64,000 bases of DNA, from assembly GCA_001770415.1 (NCBI GenBank), contig MEQX01000004.1:57305-121304 (forward strand), given 5' to 3'. Shown here in pieces: positions 43,957 to 56,613 of the stretch. Numbering within the stretch: position 1 is the first letter of the stretch; each line of letters begins with the position of its first letter. Source of the DNA: Betaproteobacteria bacterium RIFCSPLOWO2_02_FULL_63_19. GTDB taxonomy: Bacteria; Pseudomonadota; Gammaproteobacteria; Burkholderiales; SG8-39. The notes under the pieces were generated by a model. The model saw nothing but the letters and a program-made list of their open reading frames with translations. It did no database searches and had not been told where the DNA came from. Position numbers and translations under genes: made by a program.

Positions 43957-44022
43957 GCCGGTGCCCGTGTGCCGTTCTAGACAAAACCCCGGGGCGGCGC
44001 GCCGTCCCGGGTTCCGGACAGG

Positions 44023-45373: not shown

Positions 45374-45931
45374 CTAGTCCGCAAGCGCGGGCGGGTCCGG
45401 ATCGATCGACCAGTCGGCGTCCGGCTTCGGCGTGCGTTTGATCCACTCCTCGATAAGGCGCACGTGTTCTGCCTCCTCTTGCTCCATTTCCATCGCTGCC
45501 TTTCTCACTTTGGCGTTACTCGCCTGCTTTACCAGGTTGCCGTAGAACACATGGGCCCGCTTTTCGTTGTGCAGCGCTATCTGCAGCGCGTGGTAAGGCT
45601 GCATCAGGTAGTGAAGTTCCGTCACGTCTCCGGTTTCCGGCGCCTCGAAGCCCTCCCATTTGTAGCCGCCATGCGGCGTTTCAGGTGGGCTCGTCCAGCC
45701 CATCTCGTCGAGAACCTGCTCGGCGTGACGTTGCTCAATGCGCGCGAGCTTGCGAAACAAGCCAGAAACCTCTCTATTGTTGTGCAGTTCCATGGCATCG
45801 GCGAACTCGGCGTAGCGCTCCGCGGCCTCCAACTCGAGCGCGTAGGCGTACGCCATGAGTTCCTCGATACTCGCTATCCCGGCGGCGGCGCTCTTGCGCG
45901 CGCTCGCCGCAGTCGCTTTCTTCGCCTTCAT
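45374..45931 (-). CDS. Ferritin-like/rubrerythrin-type diiron protein
   Basis: YALELEAAERYAEFADAM, ARIEQRHAEQV, EMEQEEAEHVRLIEEWI; no rubredoxin domain. Confidence 0.85.
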   Translation of the reverse strand: MKAKKATAASARKSAAAGIASIEELMAYAYALELEAAERYAEFADAMELHNNREVSGLFRKLARIEQRHAEQVLDEMGWTSPPETPHGGYKWEGFEAPETGDVTELHYLMQPYHALQIALHNEKRAHVFYGNLVKQASNAKVRKAAMEMEQEEAEHVRLIEEWIKRTPKPDADWSIDPDPPALAD

Positions 45932-46791
45932 ATCGCGAATCCTTTCTCCAGATCGGCGGGTTGTTTAGCGGCTTTATCCGTCTTGCGGTAATAGGGCTCG
46001 CGGTGCCCCCGGTAAAGAATGCCGATGTTGAAGCCGTCGTCAGTCATGATCAACCTTGCCGCGCGCGCTGGATCGTCGGTGTTTATCGGCGCCTCGCGGA
46101 CAGCTTTCCTCCACTCACGCTGCTCGGGCCGGAAGGTCACACAGGGAGAGAGAATCTCGACAAACGAGAAACCGGGCGTCTTGATCGCCTCTGCAATCAG
46201 TTCGCCTGTACCCTTGGGATCTCCCGAAAACCCGCGTGCCACGAAATTTGCCCCTGCGGCAAGCGCGATCACCAACGGGTGAAACGTTCGCAGCCCGGTG
46301 CCGCCCGGGGAAAGCTTCGAGTCCCAGTCGGGCTCCGTCGTAGGCGAGGGCTGGCCCTTGGTCATCCCATACACGTGGTTATCCATCACCACGTAGGTCA
46401 TGTCGACGTTGCGGCGGCAGGCGTGCATGAAATGGTTGCCACCGATCGAATAGCCGTCGCCGTCACCGCTGGCCACGACCACCGTCAGGTCGGGGCGCGC
46501 CAGTTTCAATCCCGCGGCGGCGGCGAGAGAGCGCCCGTGCACGCCGTGAAACCCGTAGCTGGTGAGATAGGCCGGGATGCGCGATGAACAGCCGATGCCC
46601 GAAATGACTGCGGTATTCTCGGGCCTCAGACCAAGACTCGCGAACGCCCGGGTAAACGAGGACACCACCGAGAAATCGCCGCAACCCGGGCACCAGATCG
46701 GCTTGTAGTCGGACTTGAAGTCCGCCGCGGTAAGGGGAATCGTAGCTCTTGCGGTCGCGCTCGTGGTCGCGGCGGTCATTGGTTGCTCCAT
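45928..46791 (-). CDS. korB: 2-oxoacid:ferredoxin oxidoreductase beta subunit (KorB-like)
   Basis: KPIWCPGCGDFSVVSSFTRAFASLGL, GIGCSSRIPAYLTSYGFHGVHGRSLAAAAGLKLARPDLTVVVASGDGDGYSIGGNHFMHACRRN. Confidence 0.92.
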   Translation of the reverse strand: MEQPMTAATTSATARATIPLTAADFKSDYKPIWCPGCGDFSVVSSFTRAFASLGLRPENTAVISGIGCSSRIPAYLTSYGFHGVHGRSLAAAAGLKLARPDLTVVVASGDGDGYSIGGNHFMHACRRNVDMTYVVMDNHVYGMTKGQPSPTTEPDWDSKLSPGGTGLRTFHPLVIALAAGANFVARGFSGDPKGTGELIAEAIKTPGFSFVEILSPCVTFRPEQREWRKAVREAPINTDDPARAARLIMTDDGFNIGILYRGHREPYYRKTDKAAKQPADLEKGFAI

Positions 46792-48524
46792 TGGACAAGT
46801 TGACGGTGCACTTCGTCGGCACGTATCGGTAGCGGCCCCGGACGACGGAAGCTCTGCACCTCTCCAGGTATCTCGAATTCCGAGCGCAGGTGCCTGAGGA
46901 GCTGGCCGCCATGATTCTGTTCGACGACAAGCACCCGTTTTACGCCCGCGAGTGCGGCAGCGAGCTTGGCCGGCTGCGCCGGTGCGAGCAATCGCATCGA
47001 CACCAATCGTACCGGCACACCATCGGCTTTCGCGCGCGCGATCGCCTCGCGCACGGGGCCGGTGCTGGAACCAAACGTCACGACCGCCGTCTCCCCGTCA
47101 CCCTCGACGTCGGCCCAATAATCGCCGTACTCGTGGCCAAGCAGCTTGCGCTCCCGCTTGGCGAGCTGTACTGCGTGGTCCTTCGCCCCGCTTGAGGGGA
47201 TTCCGCGCTCGTTGTGCGTCAGACCGTCCGCGGTGTAGGCTATGCCCGGCGTACCGGGAATGGCCATCGGCGAAATCCCCGATTCCGTGAGCGAGTAGCG
47301 CTTATACCCTTCGGTGTTCCCGGCCGCAGTAAGTCGCGCGCCCTGATAGGATACGTCCTTGGGCCGGTCGACCACCGCACGCATCTGCCCGAAGAACTGG
47401 TCCGAAAGGACTATGGCCGGCGATTGCGTGGCCTCCGCCAGATGCACCGCCCATTGGGTGGACATAAGACAATCGGCCACCGAGTTCGGCGCCACGACGA
47501 TACGCGGAGCATCACCATGCATGCCGTTAACCGCGATCGACACGTCGCTTTGCTCACTCTTCGCGGGAATTCCAGTCGATGGACCGCCGCGCATGACGTC
47601 GATCACGACTATCGGCACTTCGGCGGCGACCGCAAGCCCGAGCGATTCTGTCATCAGCGACAGCCCCGGACCCGCGGTTGCGGTTAACGCCGGCACGCCG
47701 CCGAATGACGCGCCTATGATCATATTGATCGACGCCAGTTCGTCTTCGGCCTGCACCAGGGTACCGCCCACATCCGCCAGCGCGGGGGCAAGCCATTCCA
47801 GCACCTCGGTAGCGGGCGTGATCGGGTAAGCAGCGACGAAACGCACACCGCCCCTGATCGCACCGTAGCCGGCCGCTTGATTGCCGGTAATGAGCCAGCG
47901 CGATTCGCTGCGCGGTGCCGGCGCAGCGAGCTTCTCGCCGGCTTGCATCGTCTCGCCGGCCTCATATCCGGCATCGATCGCAGCGAGACTGGGCGCGAGG
48001 CCGGCGCGTGATTTCTTGAGCATGTTCTCGACGACGGCACGCAAAACATCCTTCGGCAAACCGATCAGGCCAGCCGCGACACCAACCACTACCATGTTGG
48101 GCCAACTGCCTTGTATGGCCTTCGCCATACCCTTGATGCCCAGTCTTTCGTAGCGTGCGGCACTCTTCGCGAAGACTTCCGGGGGATCGCCCTGGGTGGG
48201 ATCTCCGACCATGAGGCTCGCTGAATCGAGTGGAATCTCATCGGCGAAACGGTGGAGATTTTCCCAATCCACCGCAATCAGCACGTCGAACCGATCGTCC
48301 AGACAATCTACCGGACGGGTCGCGAAGCGACAAAGCGCAGCCGCTTCGCCGCCACGAATCTGCGGTCCGCTCGAGCGCACCATGAGGCCATACCACCCGG
48401 CCTTCGCCGCCGCCTCGAGCAGCATATTGCCCGCGGTCATCACACCGGCGCCGCCGCTTCCGGTGATGGCGACCGATATGCTGGTACGCGCAGCGGCCCC
48501 AGAGCCATTCCTGCTGTCCGTCAC
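46776..48524 (-). CDS. korA: 2-oxoacid:ferredoxin oxidoreductase, fused gamma-alpha subunit (KorA-like)
   Basis: SVAITGSGGAGVMTAGNMLLEAAAKAGWYG (gamma) followed by ITGNQAAGYGAIRGGVRFVAAYPITPATEVLEWLAPAL (alpha). Confidence 0.92.
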   Translation of the reverse strand: MTDSRNGSGAAARTSISVAITGSGGAGVMTAGNMLLEAAAKAGWYGLMVRSSGPQIRGGEAAALCRFATRPVDCLDDRFDVLIAVDWENLHRFADEIPLDSASLMVGDPTQGDPPEVFAKSAARYERLGIKGMAKAIQGSWPNMVVVGVAAGLIGLPKDVLRAVVENMLKKSRAGLAPSLAAIDAGYEAGETMQAGEKLAAPAPRSESRWLITGNQAAGYGAIRGGVRFVAAYPITPATEVLEWLAPALADVGGTLVQAEDELASINMIIGASFGGVPALTATAGPGLSLMTESLGLAVAAEVPIVVIDVMRGGPSTGIPAKSEQSDVSIAVNGMHGDAPRIVVAPNSVADCLMSTQWAVHLAEATQSPAIVLSDQFFGQMRAVVDRPKDVSYQGARLTAAGNTEGYKRYSLTESGISPMAIPGTPGIAYTADGLTHNERGIPSSGAKDHAVQLAKRERKLLGHEYGDYWADVEGDGETAVVTFGSSTGPVREAIARAKADGVPVRLVSMRLLAPAQPAKLAAALAGVKRVLVVEQNHGGQLLRHLRSEFEIPGEVQSFRRPGPLPIRADEVHRQLVQWSNQ

Positions 48525-48829: not shown

Positions 48830-48858
48830 TTGACAGCTTTTTAGTAATTTCGTACGAT
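48830..48858 (+). promoter_or_regulatory. Predicted sigma70 promoter for bcrCBAD
   Basis: TTGACA (48830-48835)-N17-TACGAT (48853-48858); about 200 nt upstream of bcrC. Confidence 0.65.
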
Positions 48859-48866
48859 AATACTAA
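48841..48866. promoter_or_regulatory. 26-bp imperfect palindrome overlapping the bcr -10: candidate operator
   Basis: TTAGTA-attt-CGTACG-ataa-TACTAA; core GTA-N5-GTAC-N5-TAC. Confidence 0.65.
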
Positions 48867-49063
48867 ATTAGTGATGGTTCCTCGTCAAGTCCAGCGTGCA
48901 TTGTGCGGGAAAAATAGCCGAAAATGGTTCCAACGCCTCGCCAAATTCTGTTGGTGCAGTTGCGATCCGACCCAGCGCGGGGCTTATATTCACCACCGGA
49001 GCGTCGCGCCGGCGTCCCACATAGGCCCGCCGGCTACACATAGCAATAGAGGAGCACAGTCTG

Positions 49064-50236
49064 ATGGCCGAAATGGTTAAGGATATCGTAGGCCGTTGCG
49101 AAGCGCTATTCGAGGATTTGCACTTCGATGCGGTCAAGCAATGGAAGGCGGCAGTCCCCGGCCGAAAAGCCATCGGCTATATGCCGGTCTACGTGCCCCG
49201 CGAAATCGTCCATGCCGCCGGCATGCTGCCGGTTGGCATATTCGGCGGTGGCGATCAGATGGAAGTGATCCAGGGCGATGCCTACTACCAAAGCTACATC
49301 TGCCGTATCCCGCGCTCGACCCTGGAACTCGGACTGACCGGGCGCCTGGACTGTCTGGACGGGATGCTTTTTCCATCGATCTGCGACGTGATACGCAACC
49401 TCTCGGGTATGTGGCAGATCTTGTTCAAAGATAAATACGTGCGGTACGTCGACGTGCCGCAGAACTATCTCGATTCGGTCGGCGGGGAATTCTACATCCA
49501 CGAGATGCAGGTTCTCCGGGATGACTTGGGCAAACTCGCGGGCAAGCCCGTTACCGATGATGCACTTCGAGCGTCGATTGCGGTCTATAACGAAAATCGC
49601 CGCGCGGTGCAGGATTTGTATGCCTATCGCGCACAGAAACCCTGGCAGGCACCGACCTCGGAGGTGTACCTGGTGATTCGCGCCGGCATGGTGCTGCCCC
49701 CCGAAGAGCATACGAAGTTGGTCCGCGATTACATCGCCGCCGCGGAGTTGGAGAACCGCCCCAAGCGCGACAACGCGCGCGTGGTCTTGACGGGATCCTT
49801 CTGCGAGCAGCCGCCCCTCGGTCTGATCAAATCGATAGAGATGTCAGGCTGCTATGTTGTCGACGACGATTTCGGGCTCGTAATGCGCTGGCTGCTGGAT
49901 GAAGTCCCCGCGACCGGCGATCCGCTGCTCGAACTGTCGAAAGCGTTCCTGCACCGCTCGAACCAGCAGGCGTCAAAGTACGACGAAAAGAAGGAAGACA
50001 AGGGCAAGCTCCTCGTGCATTCGGTGAAGTTCTACGGCGCGGAGGGCGTAATTTTCGCTGCACCTTCCTTTTGCGACCCCGCGCTCCTCGAGCGGCCGAT
50101 GCTGCAGGACGTGCTCGCAAAGCAAAAAATCCCCTATACGGCGTTCAAGTACGCCGAAAACACCGGCCAGATGGCCCCGATTCGCGAACAGGCCGGCACT
50201 TTTGCCGATTCGATCAAGCTATGGAGCGCTGCATGA
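49064..50236 (+). CDS. bcrC: Class I benzoyl-CoA reductase subunit C (2-hydroxyacyl-CoA dehydratase D family)
   Basis: 390 aa; KQWKAAVPGRKAIGYMPVYVPREIVHAAGMLPVGIFGGGDQMEVIQGDAYYQSYICRIPRSTLELGLTG; first of an ordered bcrCBAD set. Confidence 0.9.
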   Translation: MAEMVKDIVGRCEALFEDLHFDAVKQWKAAVPGRKAIGYMPVYVPREIVHAAGMLPVGIFGGGDQMEVIQGDAYYQSYICRIPRSTLELGLTGRLDCLDGMLFPSICDVIRNLSGMWQILFKDKYVRYVDVPQNYLDSVGGEFYIHEMQVLRDDLGKLAGKPVTDDALRASIAVYNENRRAVQDLYAYRAQKPWQAPTSEVYLVIRAGMVLPPEEHTKLVRDYIAAAELENRPKRDNARVVLTGSFCEQPPLGLIKSIEMSGCYVVDDDFGLVMRWLLDEVPATGDPLLELSKAFLHRSNQQASKYDEKKEDKGKLLVHSVKFYGAEGVIFAAPSFCDPALLERPMLQDVLAKQKIPYTAFKYAENTGQMAPIREQAGTFADSIKLWSAA

Positions 50237-50345: not shown

Positions 50346-51683
50346 ATGAGCACCCCCATCCAGATGATGCCATCGCAACCGTCGAAGAAGCCCGCGCCGA
50401 AGGTGCAGAAAGAGGACGCGATGTGGTTGCAGAAGGAGATGATCAACGCGAACTATCACGAACTCGCCACCGCGCACGAGAGAGGCAAGAAGGTTTCCGC
50501 GACCTTTGTACCGGGAAACCTCAATGAATTGGTGATGTGCTTCGACTTTGCCCGCAGCCTGCCGGAGACGAATGCGCTGCAGAACGGCATGCGCAAGAAA
50601 TCCGGCAAGATGATCATGGACGCCGAACGCGACGGCCAGTCGGAGGACGTGTGCACCTACGTCAAGGCCGACCTGGGCATGATGCTGGGTGGCGAGATCG
50701 GCCCCACCGGCGAGAAGCTCCCGACGCCGGACCTGCTGTTGCTTTCGTACACCGGCTGCTTCACATTCATGAAGTGGTTCGAGCTGGTCCGACAGAAATA
50801 CAACTGCGAAACCGTTATGTTGCACACCCCCTACCAGGGCGACGGCAAGATTTCCCAGAGCATGCGCGACTATGTCGTCAAGCAGCTCAAGGAATCGGTG
50901 ATTCCCACGCTGGAACGGGTGTCGGGGGTGAAATTCGATATCGACCGGCTGCGCCAGTACATGAAGGAATCGGCCAGGGCCGAAGACGACCTGGTGAAGG
51001 TGCTGCAGTCGGCGAAGAACCGTCCCTCGCCCATCGACGGTTACTTCGGCGCGGTGTATTACATCGGGCCGATGTTCACCGCGTTCCGCGGCACCCCCGA
51101 AGCGACGCAATACTATGACGTGCTTCGCAAGGAAATCGACGCGCGCGTCCGGGACAAGAAGGGCCCGATCACTCCAGAAGGTGAACTGACCGAGGAAAAA
51201 TACCGCCTGGTCGTCGAGGGTCCACCCAACTGGACCAGTTTCCGCGATTTCTGGAAGATGTTCGCTGACGAGGGCGCTGTCGTGGTAGCGAGCACCTATG
51301 CAAAGGTTGGCGGCGTGTACGATCTCGGTTTCCGGCACGACCCGGACCACCCCCTGGAGTCGCTTGCGGAATATTGCCTCGGCTGCTACACCAACATGAA
51401 CTTTCCGCAGCGTATCGACATGATCTGCAGGTACATCGAAGAATACGAAGCCGACGGCCTGCTGATCAATTCGATCAAGAGCTGCAACAGCTTCTCGGCC
51501 GGGCAGTTGCTTATGCTGCGCGAAGTCGAAAAGCGCACCGGCAAGCCCGCAGCGTTCATTGAATCCGACCTGGTGGACCCGCGCTACTTTTCCGCTGCAA
51601 ACATCAAGAACAGACTGGAGTCCTATTTCCAGATGATCAAGCAGAAGCGCTCCGTGGCAGGTGCTGCCGTCGCCGCGCACTGA
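50346..51683 (+). CDS. bcrB: Class I benzoyl-CoA reductase subunit B
   Basis: [75 protein letters not shown]; internal ATG 50346. Confidence 0.9.
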
Positions 51684-51699
51684 CAAGGAGGATACGGAC

Positions 51700-53037
51700 A
51701 TGCGCTGCTTTATCGGCATCGATCTCGGCTCCACCACCACCAAGGCCGTGGTGATCGACGCGCAACAAAACGTAGTGGGCCGGGGCATTACCAACTCGCG
51801 CTCCAACTATGACACCGCCGCGCAAATCGCGAAGCAGGAGGCCCTGGTCAATACGCGTTTCCATCTGTTTCGGGAAGCCCTTGCCAAATCGGGCGCACTC
51901 AACGGCTCACTCGAGGATTTCCTTGCGCAGCTCGAACGAGACTTCCGCCTCGAGCAGTTTCTGGTCCAACTATCGGACTTGGAAACCACCTCCATTCGCA
52001 ACACGGAAGGCTCGCGCTTCGGCGATGCGAGCAAGGCGGTTGCCTCTGCTTTGACGGAAATATTCAAGCGGCTCACCACCGAGGCGCCGGAGCTCTTTGC
52101 ACCAGGTGCCAAGCGAAAGTCCGATTTCTTCCGCGATATCGCGGGCAGCCGCTATCTCGCCATCGGCGACGAAGTCGCCAAGCAAGGCGGCGTTCGCTAC
52201 GACATGCTGTGCAACGTGTTCGACCGCTCGATCATCGAGGTCGAAAACCGGGTCTACGGCGACGCGATCAGCGCCAACCTCCTTGCGGCATTGGACCGTA
52301 CCTTCGTCGCGATGCCCGAAACTGCGAGCCGGGGCGACGCGGTGCGTGAGCCGATCAAGAGCGTACTGGACACCGCGCTGGAGGAAACCTACACGGTCGG
52401 CACCGGCTACGGTCGGGCGCGCCTGCCCTTTTCGAAGGAGCACATCCGCTCGGAGATACTCTGCCACGGCCTCGGCGCGCACATGATGCATCCGGGCACC
52501 GCAACCGTGCTGGACATCGGCGGCCAGGACACCAAAGCCATCCAGGTGGACAAACACGGCATCGTAGAGAGCTTCCAGATGAACGACCGCTGCGCGGCGG
52601 GCTGCGGCCGGTACCTGGGCTACATAGCCGACGAAATGAACATGGGCCTGCACGAGCTCGGGCCGCTGGCCATGAAATCCACCAAGAAGATCCGTATCAA
52701 TTCGACCTGCACCGTGTTCGCCGGCGCCGAACTTCGGGACCGACTCTCGCTCGGAGACAAGCGCGAGGACATCATGGCTGGGCTGCATCGCGCGATCATC
52801 CTGCGCGCGATGTCCATCCTCGCCCGCTCCGGCGGGATTCGCAACGAATTTACATTCACGGGCGGCGTCGCAAAGAACGAAGCCGCTGTGAAGGCACTCA
52901 AGGATCTGGTGCGCGAAAACTACGGCGAACTGACCCTGAACATCAATCCAGAATCGATTTTCACCGGTGCGCTCGGCGGCGCGACGTTCGCCTACCGCGC
53001 GGTGGTCGAGGAAGGCAAGACAGTGGAGGCGCGATAG
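51700..53037 (+). CDS. bcrA: Class I benzoyl-CoA reductase ATPase subunit A
   Basis: [34 protein letters not shown] fold; [18 protein letters not shown] FeS-bridging loop. Confidence 0.92.
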
Positions 53038-53880
53038 ATGATTACCACAATTGGCATCGACATCGGCTCGGGCGCCGTAAAAACCGTGCTATTCCGTCAG
53101 GACGGCGACAAGGTCGAATGGCTGGCCAAGCGCGTTGAGCGAATCCGGCAGCGCTCGCCGATGGAACTCGCCCGCTGGACCTACGACGAGGTCCTCGAGG
53201 AAGTGAAACTGCGGCCCGAAGACATTCAGTACACCGCCACGACCGGCGAAGGCGAAAACGTCACGTTCGCGACCGGGCACTTCTATTCGATGACCACTCA
53301 CGCGCGCGGCGGGGTGTACCTGTGCCCCGAAGCGAAAGCGGTGGTCGATGTCGGCGCACTCAACGGACGGGCTATCTTCATTGACGAGCGCGGCAAGGTG
53401 CTCGCCTCCAAGATGACGAGCCAGTGCGCTTCGGGATCCGGACAGTTCCTGGAGAACATCGCCCGTTACCTCGGTGTGGCGATCGAGGAGATCGGCCCGC
53501 TGTCGCAGACCTCGAAGGACCCGGAGAAGCCGAGTTCCATCTGCGCCGTGCTGGCGGAGACCGACGTCATCAACATGGTCTCGCGCGGCATCGCCACGCC
53601 TGACATTCTGAAGGGGATACACCTTTCGATGGCCAGCCGCCTTGCGAAACTGCTCAAGGTAACCGGAATCAAGACGGGGACCGTGTTGCTCACCGGCGGA
53701 CTGGCGCTCGATACGGGACTGCTCGCCGCGCTACAGGAAGAACTGGTGAACGAGAAGATCACCGGGATCCAGGCGGTGAGCCACCCCGATTCGATTTGCG
53801 CCGGCGCAATCGGAGCGGCGCTGTGGGGTGCGTTCCGCCACGAAAAACTCCGCCAGCTCGAGCAGCGGGCAGCGGCGTAG
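53038..53880 (+). CDS. bcrD: Class I benzoyl-CoA reductase ATPase subunit D
   Basis: TIGIDIGSGAVKTVLFRQDGDKVEWLAKRVERIRQRSPMELARWTYDEVL; SQCASGSGQFLENIARYLG. Confidence 0.92.
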   Translation: MITTIGIDIGSGAVKTVLFRQDGDKVEWLAKRVERIRQRSPMELARWTYDEVLEEVKLRPEDIQYTATTGEGENVTFATGHFYSMTTHARGGVYLCPEAKAVVDVGALNGRAIFIDERGKVLASKMTSQCASGSGQFLENIARYLGVAIEEIGPLSQTSKDPEKPSSICAVLAETDVINMVSRGIATPDILKGIHLSMASRLAKLLKVTGIKTGTVLLTGGLALDTGLLAALQEELVNEKITGIQAVSHPDSICAGAIGAALWGAFRHEKLRQLEQRAAA

Positions 53881-53892
53881 ACACGCACACAT

Positions 53893-53920
53893 TTGCCGGG
53901 GCGCACCATCGATCTATAAT
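53893..53920 (+). promoter_or_regulatory. Predicted promoter for the ferredoxin gene
   Basis: TTGCCG (53893-53898)-N16-TATAAT (53915-53920) just upstream of the ferredoxin ATG. Confidence 0.55.
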
Positions 53921-53943
53921 ACGTGCGACCAACGGAGGACGAC

Positions 53944-54189
53944 ATGGCTCTGCTCATTACCGACGACTGTACCGCTTGCGACGCCTGCAAACCTGCATGC
54001 CCGAACGAAGCGATAAGCGTGGGCGATCCCTATTACGTCATTGACCCGCTGCGCTGCACTGAATGCGTCGGCGCGTTCGACGAACCTCAGTGCAAGCTCG
54101 TGTGTCCGGCCAATTGCATCGACGTGAACCCGGACTTCCAGGAAACGCCGGAACAACTGCAGGAGAAGTATCAAAGCCTGCATGGTTAG
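53944..54189 (+). CDS. fdx: 2[4Fe-4S] ferredoxin, Allochromatium/Thauera type
   Basis: MALLITDDCTACDACKPACPNEAI..CTECVGAFDEPQCKLVCPANCI: CxxCxxC plus CxxC-x8-CxxxCP; start ATG 53944. Confidence 0.93.
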   Translation: MALLITDDCTACDACKPACPNEAISVGDPYYVIDPLRCTECVGAFDEPQCKLVCPANCIDVNPDFQETPEQLQEKYQSLHG

Positions 54190-54359: not shown

Positions 54360-55382
54360 TCAGCTGACGCGCTTGACGAACGCGAGCCGCTGCGATGGCG
54401 CAAAGTCAAGCTTGTAGAGGAATCCGAGCAAGCCAAAGTTCTCGCGCGAGACCATGGTTTCGACTCGCTCGACCTGCAGACCAGCCAGGTTGATGAACAG
54501 TTGCGACAGCAACGCGTGCCCGACGCCATGGTGCGAATAATCGGGGTCCACACCGATGGTATCGAGAACCGCCACCGGTTCGGGACGGCCGAAATCTCCG
54601 AAGTCGGTGCGTGCCATTATGAATCCTGCCGCGATGCCATCGACCCTCGCCACCAATGACAAGCGTACGGCCGAATCGGTGAGCGCTTCCTGTACCACGT
54701 GCTCAATGTAGCCCTCGCGCCGGCGGCCAGTCACGCTTTCATCGATACGCTTGACGTGCACAGTGTCCTCGGGTTTGAGCGTGCGCAGGTCGACCCTGTC
54801 ACGCGCCAACGCTTCAAAATCGTTGCCCTTGGAAGGGCTGTAGTCAATTTCGCTGGTCGAAAAGCCGGTCAGGTGCCCCGGAGCCAGGACCTTATCGCCC
54901 TCATGCGCGGCAAGGCGGTCGCCGCGCACCGGACAATCCACGACGAGAACCTTATCCAGTTCGAAGCCCGCTCGATCAAAGAACTGCAGGATGCGATGGT
55001 CGCGCCATGACCCCGTGGTGCGTATCTCCGCGACACCGAGGCGCCTGGCCTCGGCTTCCAACTTAGACATGAGCGCGGAACCGATACCCTGTCCCTGCTC
55101 GCCGGAGGCGACACCCATCGCCTCGAGCCGCAATGCAGGCTCCGCGCGCCCGAACTGGCCAAACAGCTGCCGCGCCATCACGAAACCGACGAGTTTCCCG
55201 CCATGTTCGCACGCGAACTGCACATGCAACGCCGGCTGATCGAGCGCCGCCTTCAGCCGCTTATGGTGATAAACATGCCGGGCACGGCCGATATTCGCCT
55301 GGTCGAGCGCAACCACGGAATCCAGATCCCGTTCTGTCAATCCGCGAAGCGTGATGTCCCGCTGCTGTGTACTGGTAACCAA
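54360..55382 (-). CDS. Tandem GNAT-domain acetyltransferase
   Basis: Two GNAT repeats: LEAMGVASGEQGQGIGSALMSKLEAEARRLGV and LDTIGVDPDYSHHGVGHALLSQLFINLAGLQV. Confidence 0.85.
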   Translation of the reverse strand: MVTSTQQRDITLRGLTERDLDSVVALDQANIGRARHVYHHKRLKAALDQPALHVQFACEHGGKLVGFVMARQLFGQFGRAEPALRLEAMGVASGEQGQGIGSALMSKLEAEARRLGVAEIRTTGSWRDHRILQFFDRAGFELDKVLVVDCPVRGDRLAAHEGDKVLAPGHLTGFSTSEIDYSPSKGNDFEALARDRVDLRTLKPEDTVHVKRIDESVTGRRREGYIEHVVQEALTDSAVRLSLVARVDGIAAGFIMARTDFGDFGRPEPVAVLDTIGVDPDYSHHGVGHALLSQLFINLAGLQVERVETMVSRENFGLLGFLYKLDFAPSQRLAFVKRVS

Positions 55383-55597
55383 TGCAAATCTCCTTCTCGT
55401 GCCGCTGTATCGTGGAATTTCGTCTGCCCTCGGTGTATTGCCGCGATTCTAGCGCAGTGATCTTCCCACCGTCCCCATTCGCGCAATACGGTGCCCGACG
55501 GTATGCGCGTTGAACTGCGGCCGATGACCGACACTCGATCCGTCGCACCGGTTCGCCCGCTCACGGCAAGAATCGCCGGTGCTTTCGCCCATACATG

Positions 55598-55617
55598 GTA
55601 ACCTAGTACGTAATTAC
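55598..55617. promoter_or_regulatory. Candidate operator with the same core dyad as the bcr site
   Basis: GTAacctaGTACgtaatTAC = GTA-N5-GTAC-N5-TAC, upstream of GNAT-Rrf2 and between divergent genes. Confidence 0.5.
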
Positions 55618-55663
55618 CGGTTTTTAGGTCCGCGCCCCTTAGCCCTAATTCAATTATTCCGGA

Positions 55664-56194
55664 ATGCATTCGATGCCAGGCCCCGATTCACCCGCCACGC
55701 CCGCGGGCAGCGCCAGCCACCGCCAGCCGAGACCGACAATCCGGGTCCGTCCCATTGAAGCCGGTGACCTCGCCCAGGTCATTGCGATCGATGCCGAGGC
55801 AAGCGGCATCGATAAAGTGGATTACTGGTATGAACTCTTCCATCGCTACGGAACGCGGGGACGACAACAGCGCTTTTTCCTGGTCGCGGAAGCCGAGGAT
55901 TCCGTTCTGGGTTTCATCATCGGCGAGGTCCGAGACTGGGAATTCGGATCGCCCCCCTGCGGGTGGGTGTTCGGCATTGCGGTGAGGCGTGCCGCCCGCG
56001 TGGGCGGCGTGGGCAGTGAACTGCTCGCGGCAATCCTTGAAAACTTTCGTCGGGCCGGTGTGGAAAAAGTGCGCACGCTGACCACGCGCGACAACAACCT
56101 GGTGCTGTCGTTCTTTCGAAGCCAGGGCATGATGGCCGCACCGTTCATTCCTCTCGAAATGGACCTTCCCGCGGTAAAGGGGGACATATCGTGA
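55664..56194 (+). CDS. GNAT acetyltransferase (BadL-like by context)
   Basis: IRVRPIEAGDLAQVIAIDAEASGIDKVDYW..FGIAVRRAARVGGVGSELLAAILENFRRAGVEKVRTLTTRDN. Confidence 0.85.
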   Translation: MHSMPGPDSPATPAGSASHRQPRPTIRVRPIEAGDLAQVIAIDAEASGIDKVDYWYELFHRYGTRGRQQRFFLVAEAEDSVLGFIIGEVRDWEFGSPPCGWVFGIAVRRAARVGGVGSELLAAILENFRRAGVEKVRTLTTRDNNLVLSFFRSQGMMAAPFIPLEMDLPAVKGDIS

Positions 56195-56613
56195 GGCTGC
56201 AGACCAGCACCATGCTCGCGCTGTACAGCATCATCGAGGCGGCCTCGCACCCAGGCAAGCAGGTTTCGGCCGCGGAGATCGCGGAGCGCTACGGCGTGTC
56301 GGCGCATCACCTGGCGAAGGTGCTGCGCGAGCTGGGGCGCGCCGGCCTTGTGGACTCGTCGCGGGGCGCAGGAGGCGGATATCGCTTCTCGGGCAACGCG
56401 CGGCGGCTCACACTCATGGACGTTATCGAGCGCTTCGAGGACATCGGCGCACGCTCCCCGGACCCGGGTACTGCGCAAACCGACCTTGGACTGGCCATCG
56501 CGCGCGTGCTCTCGGAGATCGACGAAATCGCCAAAGCCACGTTTCGCTCGATCACCATCGAAACGCTGCTGAAGCTGGTCGAACGGGCGCGGCGGTCTGA
56601 AACATCAGAGTAG
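56191..56613 (+). CDS. Rrf2-family transcriptional regulator (BadM-like by context)
   Basis: TMLALYSIIEAASHPGKQVSAAEIAERYGVSAHHLAKVLRELGRAGLVDSSRGAGGGYRFSGNARRLTLMDVIERFED. Confidence 0.88.
   Translation: MRLQTSTMLALYSIIEAASHPGKQVSAAEIAERYGVSAHHLAKVLRELGRAGLVDSSRGAGGGYRFSGNARRLTLMDVIERFEDIGARSPDPGTAQTDLGLAIARVLSEIDEIAKATFRSITIETLLKLVERARRSETSE

Follow-up and report, generated by a model that had tools for sequence, protein, structure and literature searches.

The window (the whole stretch of DNA analysed, 64,000 nucleotides) carries on its plus strand bcrC (49064-50236; TIGR02263, 652 bits), bcrB (50346-51683; TIGR02260), bcrA (51700-53037; TIGR02259) and bcrD (53038-53880; TIGR02261), the starts of bcrB and bcrA being the likely ones judged from translation. 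The NCBIfam equivalog models, with scores far above cut-off, assign this bcrCBAD cluster, which serves the anaerobic degradation of benzoate, to the Thauera type. Divergently, on the minus strand, lie korA for the alpha subunit of a 2-oxoacid:acceptor oxidoreductase (46776-48524; TIGR03710, 542.6 bits) and korB for the TPP-binding beta subunit (45928-46791; PF02775). In Thauera aromatica, benzoyl-CoA reductase receives its reduced ferredoxin from KorAB (Dorner and Boll 2002, cited in PMC9973337), and the korAB product presumably plays this part for the benzoyl-CoA reductase of the window.

Downstream of bcrD, a plus-strand ORF (53923-54189) is a probable fdx gene, to judge from its translation, a small ferredoxin in which two cysteine motifs of the 4Fe-4S type occur. 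The promoter-like element TTGCCG-N16-TATAAT (53893-53920) stands just before this ORF, and fdx may have a promoter of its own. A tandem GNAT protein is encoded on the minus strand at 54360-55382, between fdx and a plus-strand gene for a BadL-like GNAT N-acetyltransferase (55664-56194; PF00583). The neighbouring gene on the same strand (56191-56613; PF02082, 6e-24) encodes a BadM-like Rrf2 repressor with orthologues in related genomes. The two genes overlap and are laid out like badL-badM.

An initial annotation of this DNA had described, upstream of bcrC, a near-consensus sigma70 promoter with an operator placed over its -10 hexamer. The promoter elements are present on the plus strand as TTGACA (-35, 48830-48835) and TACGAT (-10, 48853-48858), with a spacing of 17, 10/12 consensus matches and a predicted start at ~48865. 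Promoter-like matches of equal quality are frequent (four found in 8 kb, 1.8 expected), and taken alone the TTGACA-TACGAT match is weak evidence of a promoter. The comparison with related genomes gives it support. In the nearest relative, Betaproteobacteria bacterium RIFCSPLOWO2_02_FULL_65_20 (locus L012; BcrC 93% identical), CTTGACA is identical and the spacing and the -10 hexamer are kept, and several betaproteobacterial relatives have TTGAC at the equivalent place. The alternative hexamer named in the annotation, TATATT, does exist at 48985-48990; we rejected it as the bcr -10, as it is lost in L012, which reads GTCTCT there. The predicted start leaves a bcrC leader of ~199 nt by arithmetic, in agreement with the ~200 nt proposed earlier. 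The accompanying suggestion of additional control within the leader found no support: an Rfam search of the leader gave no family match up to E 0.1, and only 111 of its 188 columns are identical to L012. Boxes of the FNR/AadR type (TTGAT-N4-ATCAA) were also considered, and the best matches, with 3/10 mismatches, were not convincing.

The palindrome reported across the spacer end, the -10 and the start region was confirmed. Its 26-bp core, TTAGTAATTTCGTACGATAATACTAA at 48841-48866, pairs at 11/13 positions, and extension by one pair to TTTAGTA...TACTAAA yields the 28-bp palindrome at 48840-48867 (12/14 pairs, no strand) that we predict to be a BadM-type operator. By chance, no more than 0.18% of 539-bp regions of equal composition should hold a palindrome of 12/14 pairs, and TTAGTA-N14-TACTAA occurs a single time in the 4.65 Mb genome. 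Within the 44-bp block CTTGACAG...TTAGT, 41/44 columns are identical to L012, which, together with the motif family found across loci (see below), supports the placement of an operator over the bcr -10. The earlier description had divided the palindrome into TTAGTA arms and a central CGTACG; these letters are present, but the centre reads CAGTACG in L012, so that conservation falls on GTAC in the middle and on the GTAWT/AWTAC arms outside it. To judge from the alignment, the conserved motif is better written as GTAWT-N4-GTAC-N4-AWTAC than as TTAGTA plus CGTACG. An inverted repeat that arose by chance, or that is purely structural and has no regulatory role, might be considered, given that ~0.65 equally good palindromes are expected per 64-kb window and that another one is found at 43986. 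We give this explanation practically no weight, because the conservation of the motif and its recovery in a second class exclude a chance repeat; conservation is the strongest evidence against chance and settles the point.

The promoter/operator picture of the initial annotation was thus right in outline; it had overlooked a minus-strand promoter that shares the operator and had left the regulator unnamed. This second predicted promoter, TTGACG-N17-TAGTAT (48888-48860), faces korAB. Its -35 hexamer lies at 48883-48888, in a sequence (CGTCAAGTCC) that is conserved in L012, and its -10 hexamer, within the operator, at 48860-48865, with a predicted start at ~48853. Both -10 hexamers lie side by side inside the operator and the predicted divergent starts are ~12 bp apart; the elements are conserved in close relatives. 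Among the relatives, minus-strand elements with at least 9/12 matches were found in 50% of the loci and elements in the bcr direction in 23%, as compared with 6% in shuffled flanks. Consensus -35/-10 pairs are weak in many distant relatives.

These frequencies bear on the possibility that kor or badLM is the main target of the operator, with the bcr start elsewhere, for example at the TATATT of 48985-48990, and with a fortuitous TTGACA-TACGAT. The commoner minus-strand signal speaks for such an arrangement, as does the bcr -10, which matches the consensus at merely 4/6 positions in a setting where chance promoter-like matches are common. We nevertheless regard it as quite improbable. L012 keeps the bcr elements and their spacing but not the 48985 hexamer, and at a further locus (L209) the operator lies directly 5' of bcrC while no kor was found in 18 kb.

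We searched the relatives for the exact arms TTAGTA/TACTAA (at least 10/12 matches) and found few sites; three other genomes had similar ones immediately in front of divergent kor genes, at the opposite end of their bcr clusters. A symmetric matrix was needed because the palindrome arms vary among relatives. The first such matrix was dropped as self-trained and replaced by one built from bcr/kor regions only, namely those upstream of divergent kor genes. The resulting operator family reads about TGGTATTnnRGTACYnnAATACCA. A site of >15 bits was present in the bcr/kor promoter region of 56/58 betaproteobacterial loci (shuffled 99th percentile, 6.8), a count that is circular because those sites trained the matrix.

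Held-out loci provided a separate measure. On the 5' side of badL, 20 of 30 badLM loci (one of which, L094, ends at a contig end) had a site of >15 bits, located ~0.45-0.6 kb before badM, and a clear site was missing in about a third. Some of these sites precede badLM on contigs other than the bcr contig. The motif was also recovered in all of 14 bcr loci that we take to be alphaproteobacterial (the class of G580, a different class of the same phylum), each with a site of >16 bits in the bcr region; the 14 genomes were drawn later, regardless of the motif, and shuffled loci of equal size gave a median of 6.6, a 95th percentile of 13.8 and a maximum of 19.8 bits. With a matrix that left out the window and L012, the operator scored 23.9 bits within the 64-kb window, and the best non-overlapping site of the remainder 4.2 bits, once a weaker copy was set aside. 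This copy, ATGGTAACCTAGTACGTAATTACCGG (55595-55620, no strand; 18.2 bits), is the second-best site of the 64 kb and lies ~45 bp before badL; its position suggests autoregulation of badL-badM. In another locus (L208, genome G1066), a single operator stands between divergent bcrC and badL.

A scan of the whole genome with one mismatch allowed returned 28 places, as against 15 for the reversed pattern, and therefore no wider regulon can be claimed in this genome. No operator was found within 20 kb of the oah gene of genome G000 (contig C8:28588-29664; L146, L151), a gene that is unlinked to bcr.

As to the regulator, the protein encoded at 56191-56613 scores 85.1 bits with PF02082 (Pfam cut-off, 30) and thus has an Rrf2 domain. 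Its gene directly follows and overlaps the BadL-type GNAT gene near the benzoyl-CoA reductase operon, and this pairing recurs in most relatives. Among 24 genomes outside the training set, all 17 that have a BadM orthologue carry the site, as does one of the seven that have none (Fisher p=5e-5, a value that ignores kinship among the genomes and serves only as a guide). The co-occurrence of the motif with BadM, the badL-badM pair in the window and the site before badL make BadM the likely repressor at the bcr/kor operator on the sequence data. Six bcr-carrying genomes of the same class (G061, G087, G211, G014, G093 and G265; L131-L136) have neither BadM nor the operator, and must therefore regulate the bcr cluster otherwise; in five of the six, a divergent kor is found in the stretch read.

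Three genomes have the site and no BadM that we could find, namely G1059, from outside the training set, and two betaproteobacterial members of that set, G374 and G402. The G1059 operator (L198:7041) is a very good one, at 30.3 bits. The lack of BadM may reflect assembly gaps in all three or, in G1059, another regulator. These genomes, and another Rrf2 gene in the genome that the window comes from, would fit a real operator that belongs to a different aromatic regulator (BadR or another MarR protein, BzdR/BoxR, or another Rrf2 protein), with BadM merely encoded in the same cluster. We consider this rather unlikely. The motif is unlike the BadR operator CAATnnATTG (PMC9795900) and the TGCA repeats of BzdR/BoxR (PMC6449761), it precedes badLM itself, even on contigs apart from bcr, and the six bcr genomes without BadM are also without the motif. 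Neither CAATnnATTG nor CAAN4TTG is present in the palindrome, and we rejected BadR-type and BzdR-type sites, none of which coincides with the operator. An iron-sulphur sensor of the IscR, NsrR or RsrR kind was rejected as well: the window BadM has no cysteine, 37/48 orthologous sequences likewise lack one, and their alignment shows no conserved cysteine column.

BadM thus remains the favoured repressor, and its family, target operon and repression are already known from Rhodopseudomonas palustris. There, BadM acts as a repressor of badDEFGAB; in gel shifts it bound the badC-badD region, with an affinity that is reduced by the acetamidobenzoates that BadL produces (PMC6191541). Common to both systems are an Rrf2 regulator beside a BadL acetyltransferase and a benzoyl-CoA reductase operon as target (PMC6191541). 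Unlike the R. palustris case, the window operator spans the divergent bcrCBAD and korAB promoters; R. palustris CGA009 is without korAB (PMC9973337). The cross-class motif and the shared bcr/kor control element would be additions to this knowledge.

Bidirectional promoters of E. coli have starts 10-23 bp apart, and AcrR represses both the acrA and acrR RNAs (PMC12825309). The predicted starts ~12 bp apart and the single proposed repressor for both directions resemble these cases, but the window is predicted to have two adjacent -10 hexamers in one operator and no single shared -10. The MarR-type BadR, whose 10-bp operator controls bad-ali genes, likewise acts in anaerobic aromatic/alicyclic catabolism from a repressor site that lies over divergent promoters (PMC9795900), whereas the window operator differs in sequence, protein family and genes. 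BzdR/BoxR also control the benzoyl-CoA pathway in Betaproteobacteria, but through TGCA repeats, and others found no BzdR/BoxR sites upstream of the bcr operon of Thauera MZ1T (PMC6449761).

Taken together, we think it highly probable that the palindrome is a BadM-type Rrf2 operator at which a dimer closes the overlapping bcrCBAD and korAB promoters, with autoregulation of badLM and an aromatic inducer. What the sequences show directly is where the sites lie, that they are conserved and that they occur together with badM; binding by BadM, repression by occlusion, the start sites and the ligand are inferred. A BadM dimer over 48840-48867 would cover both -10 elements of the overlapping divergent sigma70 promoters and, while bound, would keep RNA polymerase off bcrCBAD (probably with fdx) and korAB. 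By occupying the weaker site before badL-badM, BadM would also regulate its own gene. An aromatic ligand that the BadL acetyltransferase makes or signals is the probable inducer, in line with what is reported for acetamidobenzoates in R. palustris; once it is bound, BadM would leave the operator, and the reductase would be expressed along with the enzyme that supplies its electrons. A more far-reaching version, which we put forward tentatively and hold to be possible rather than probable, is that one BadM dimer switches two mutually exclusive promoters, that polymerase competition at the -10 hexamers sets the ratio of reductase to ferredoxin-reducing enzyme, and that this device is conserved across Alpha- and Betaproteobacteria.

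The same-class genomes that carry bcr but lack both BadM and the operator offer a natural comparison in which regulation differs. For the organism, the shared operator would provide a simple reason for the joint switching of an oxygen-sensitive, ATP-consuming reductase and its low-potential electron supplier. For the family, an operator model for BadM in two proteobacterial classes would make BadM regulons predictable from sequence.
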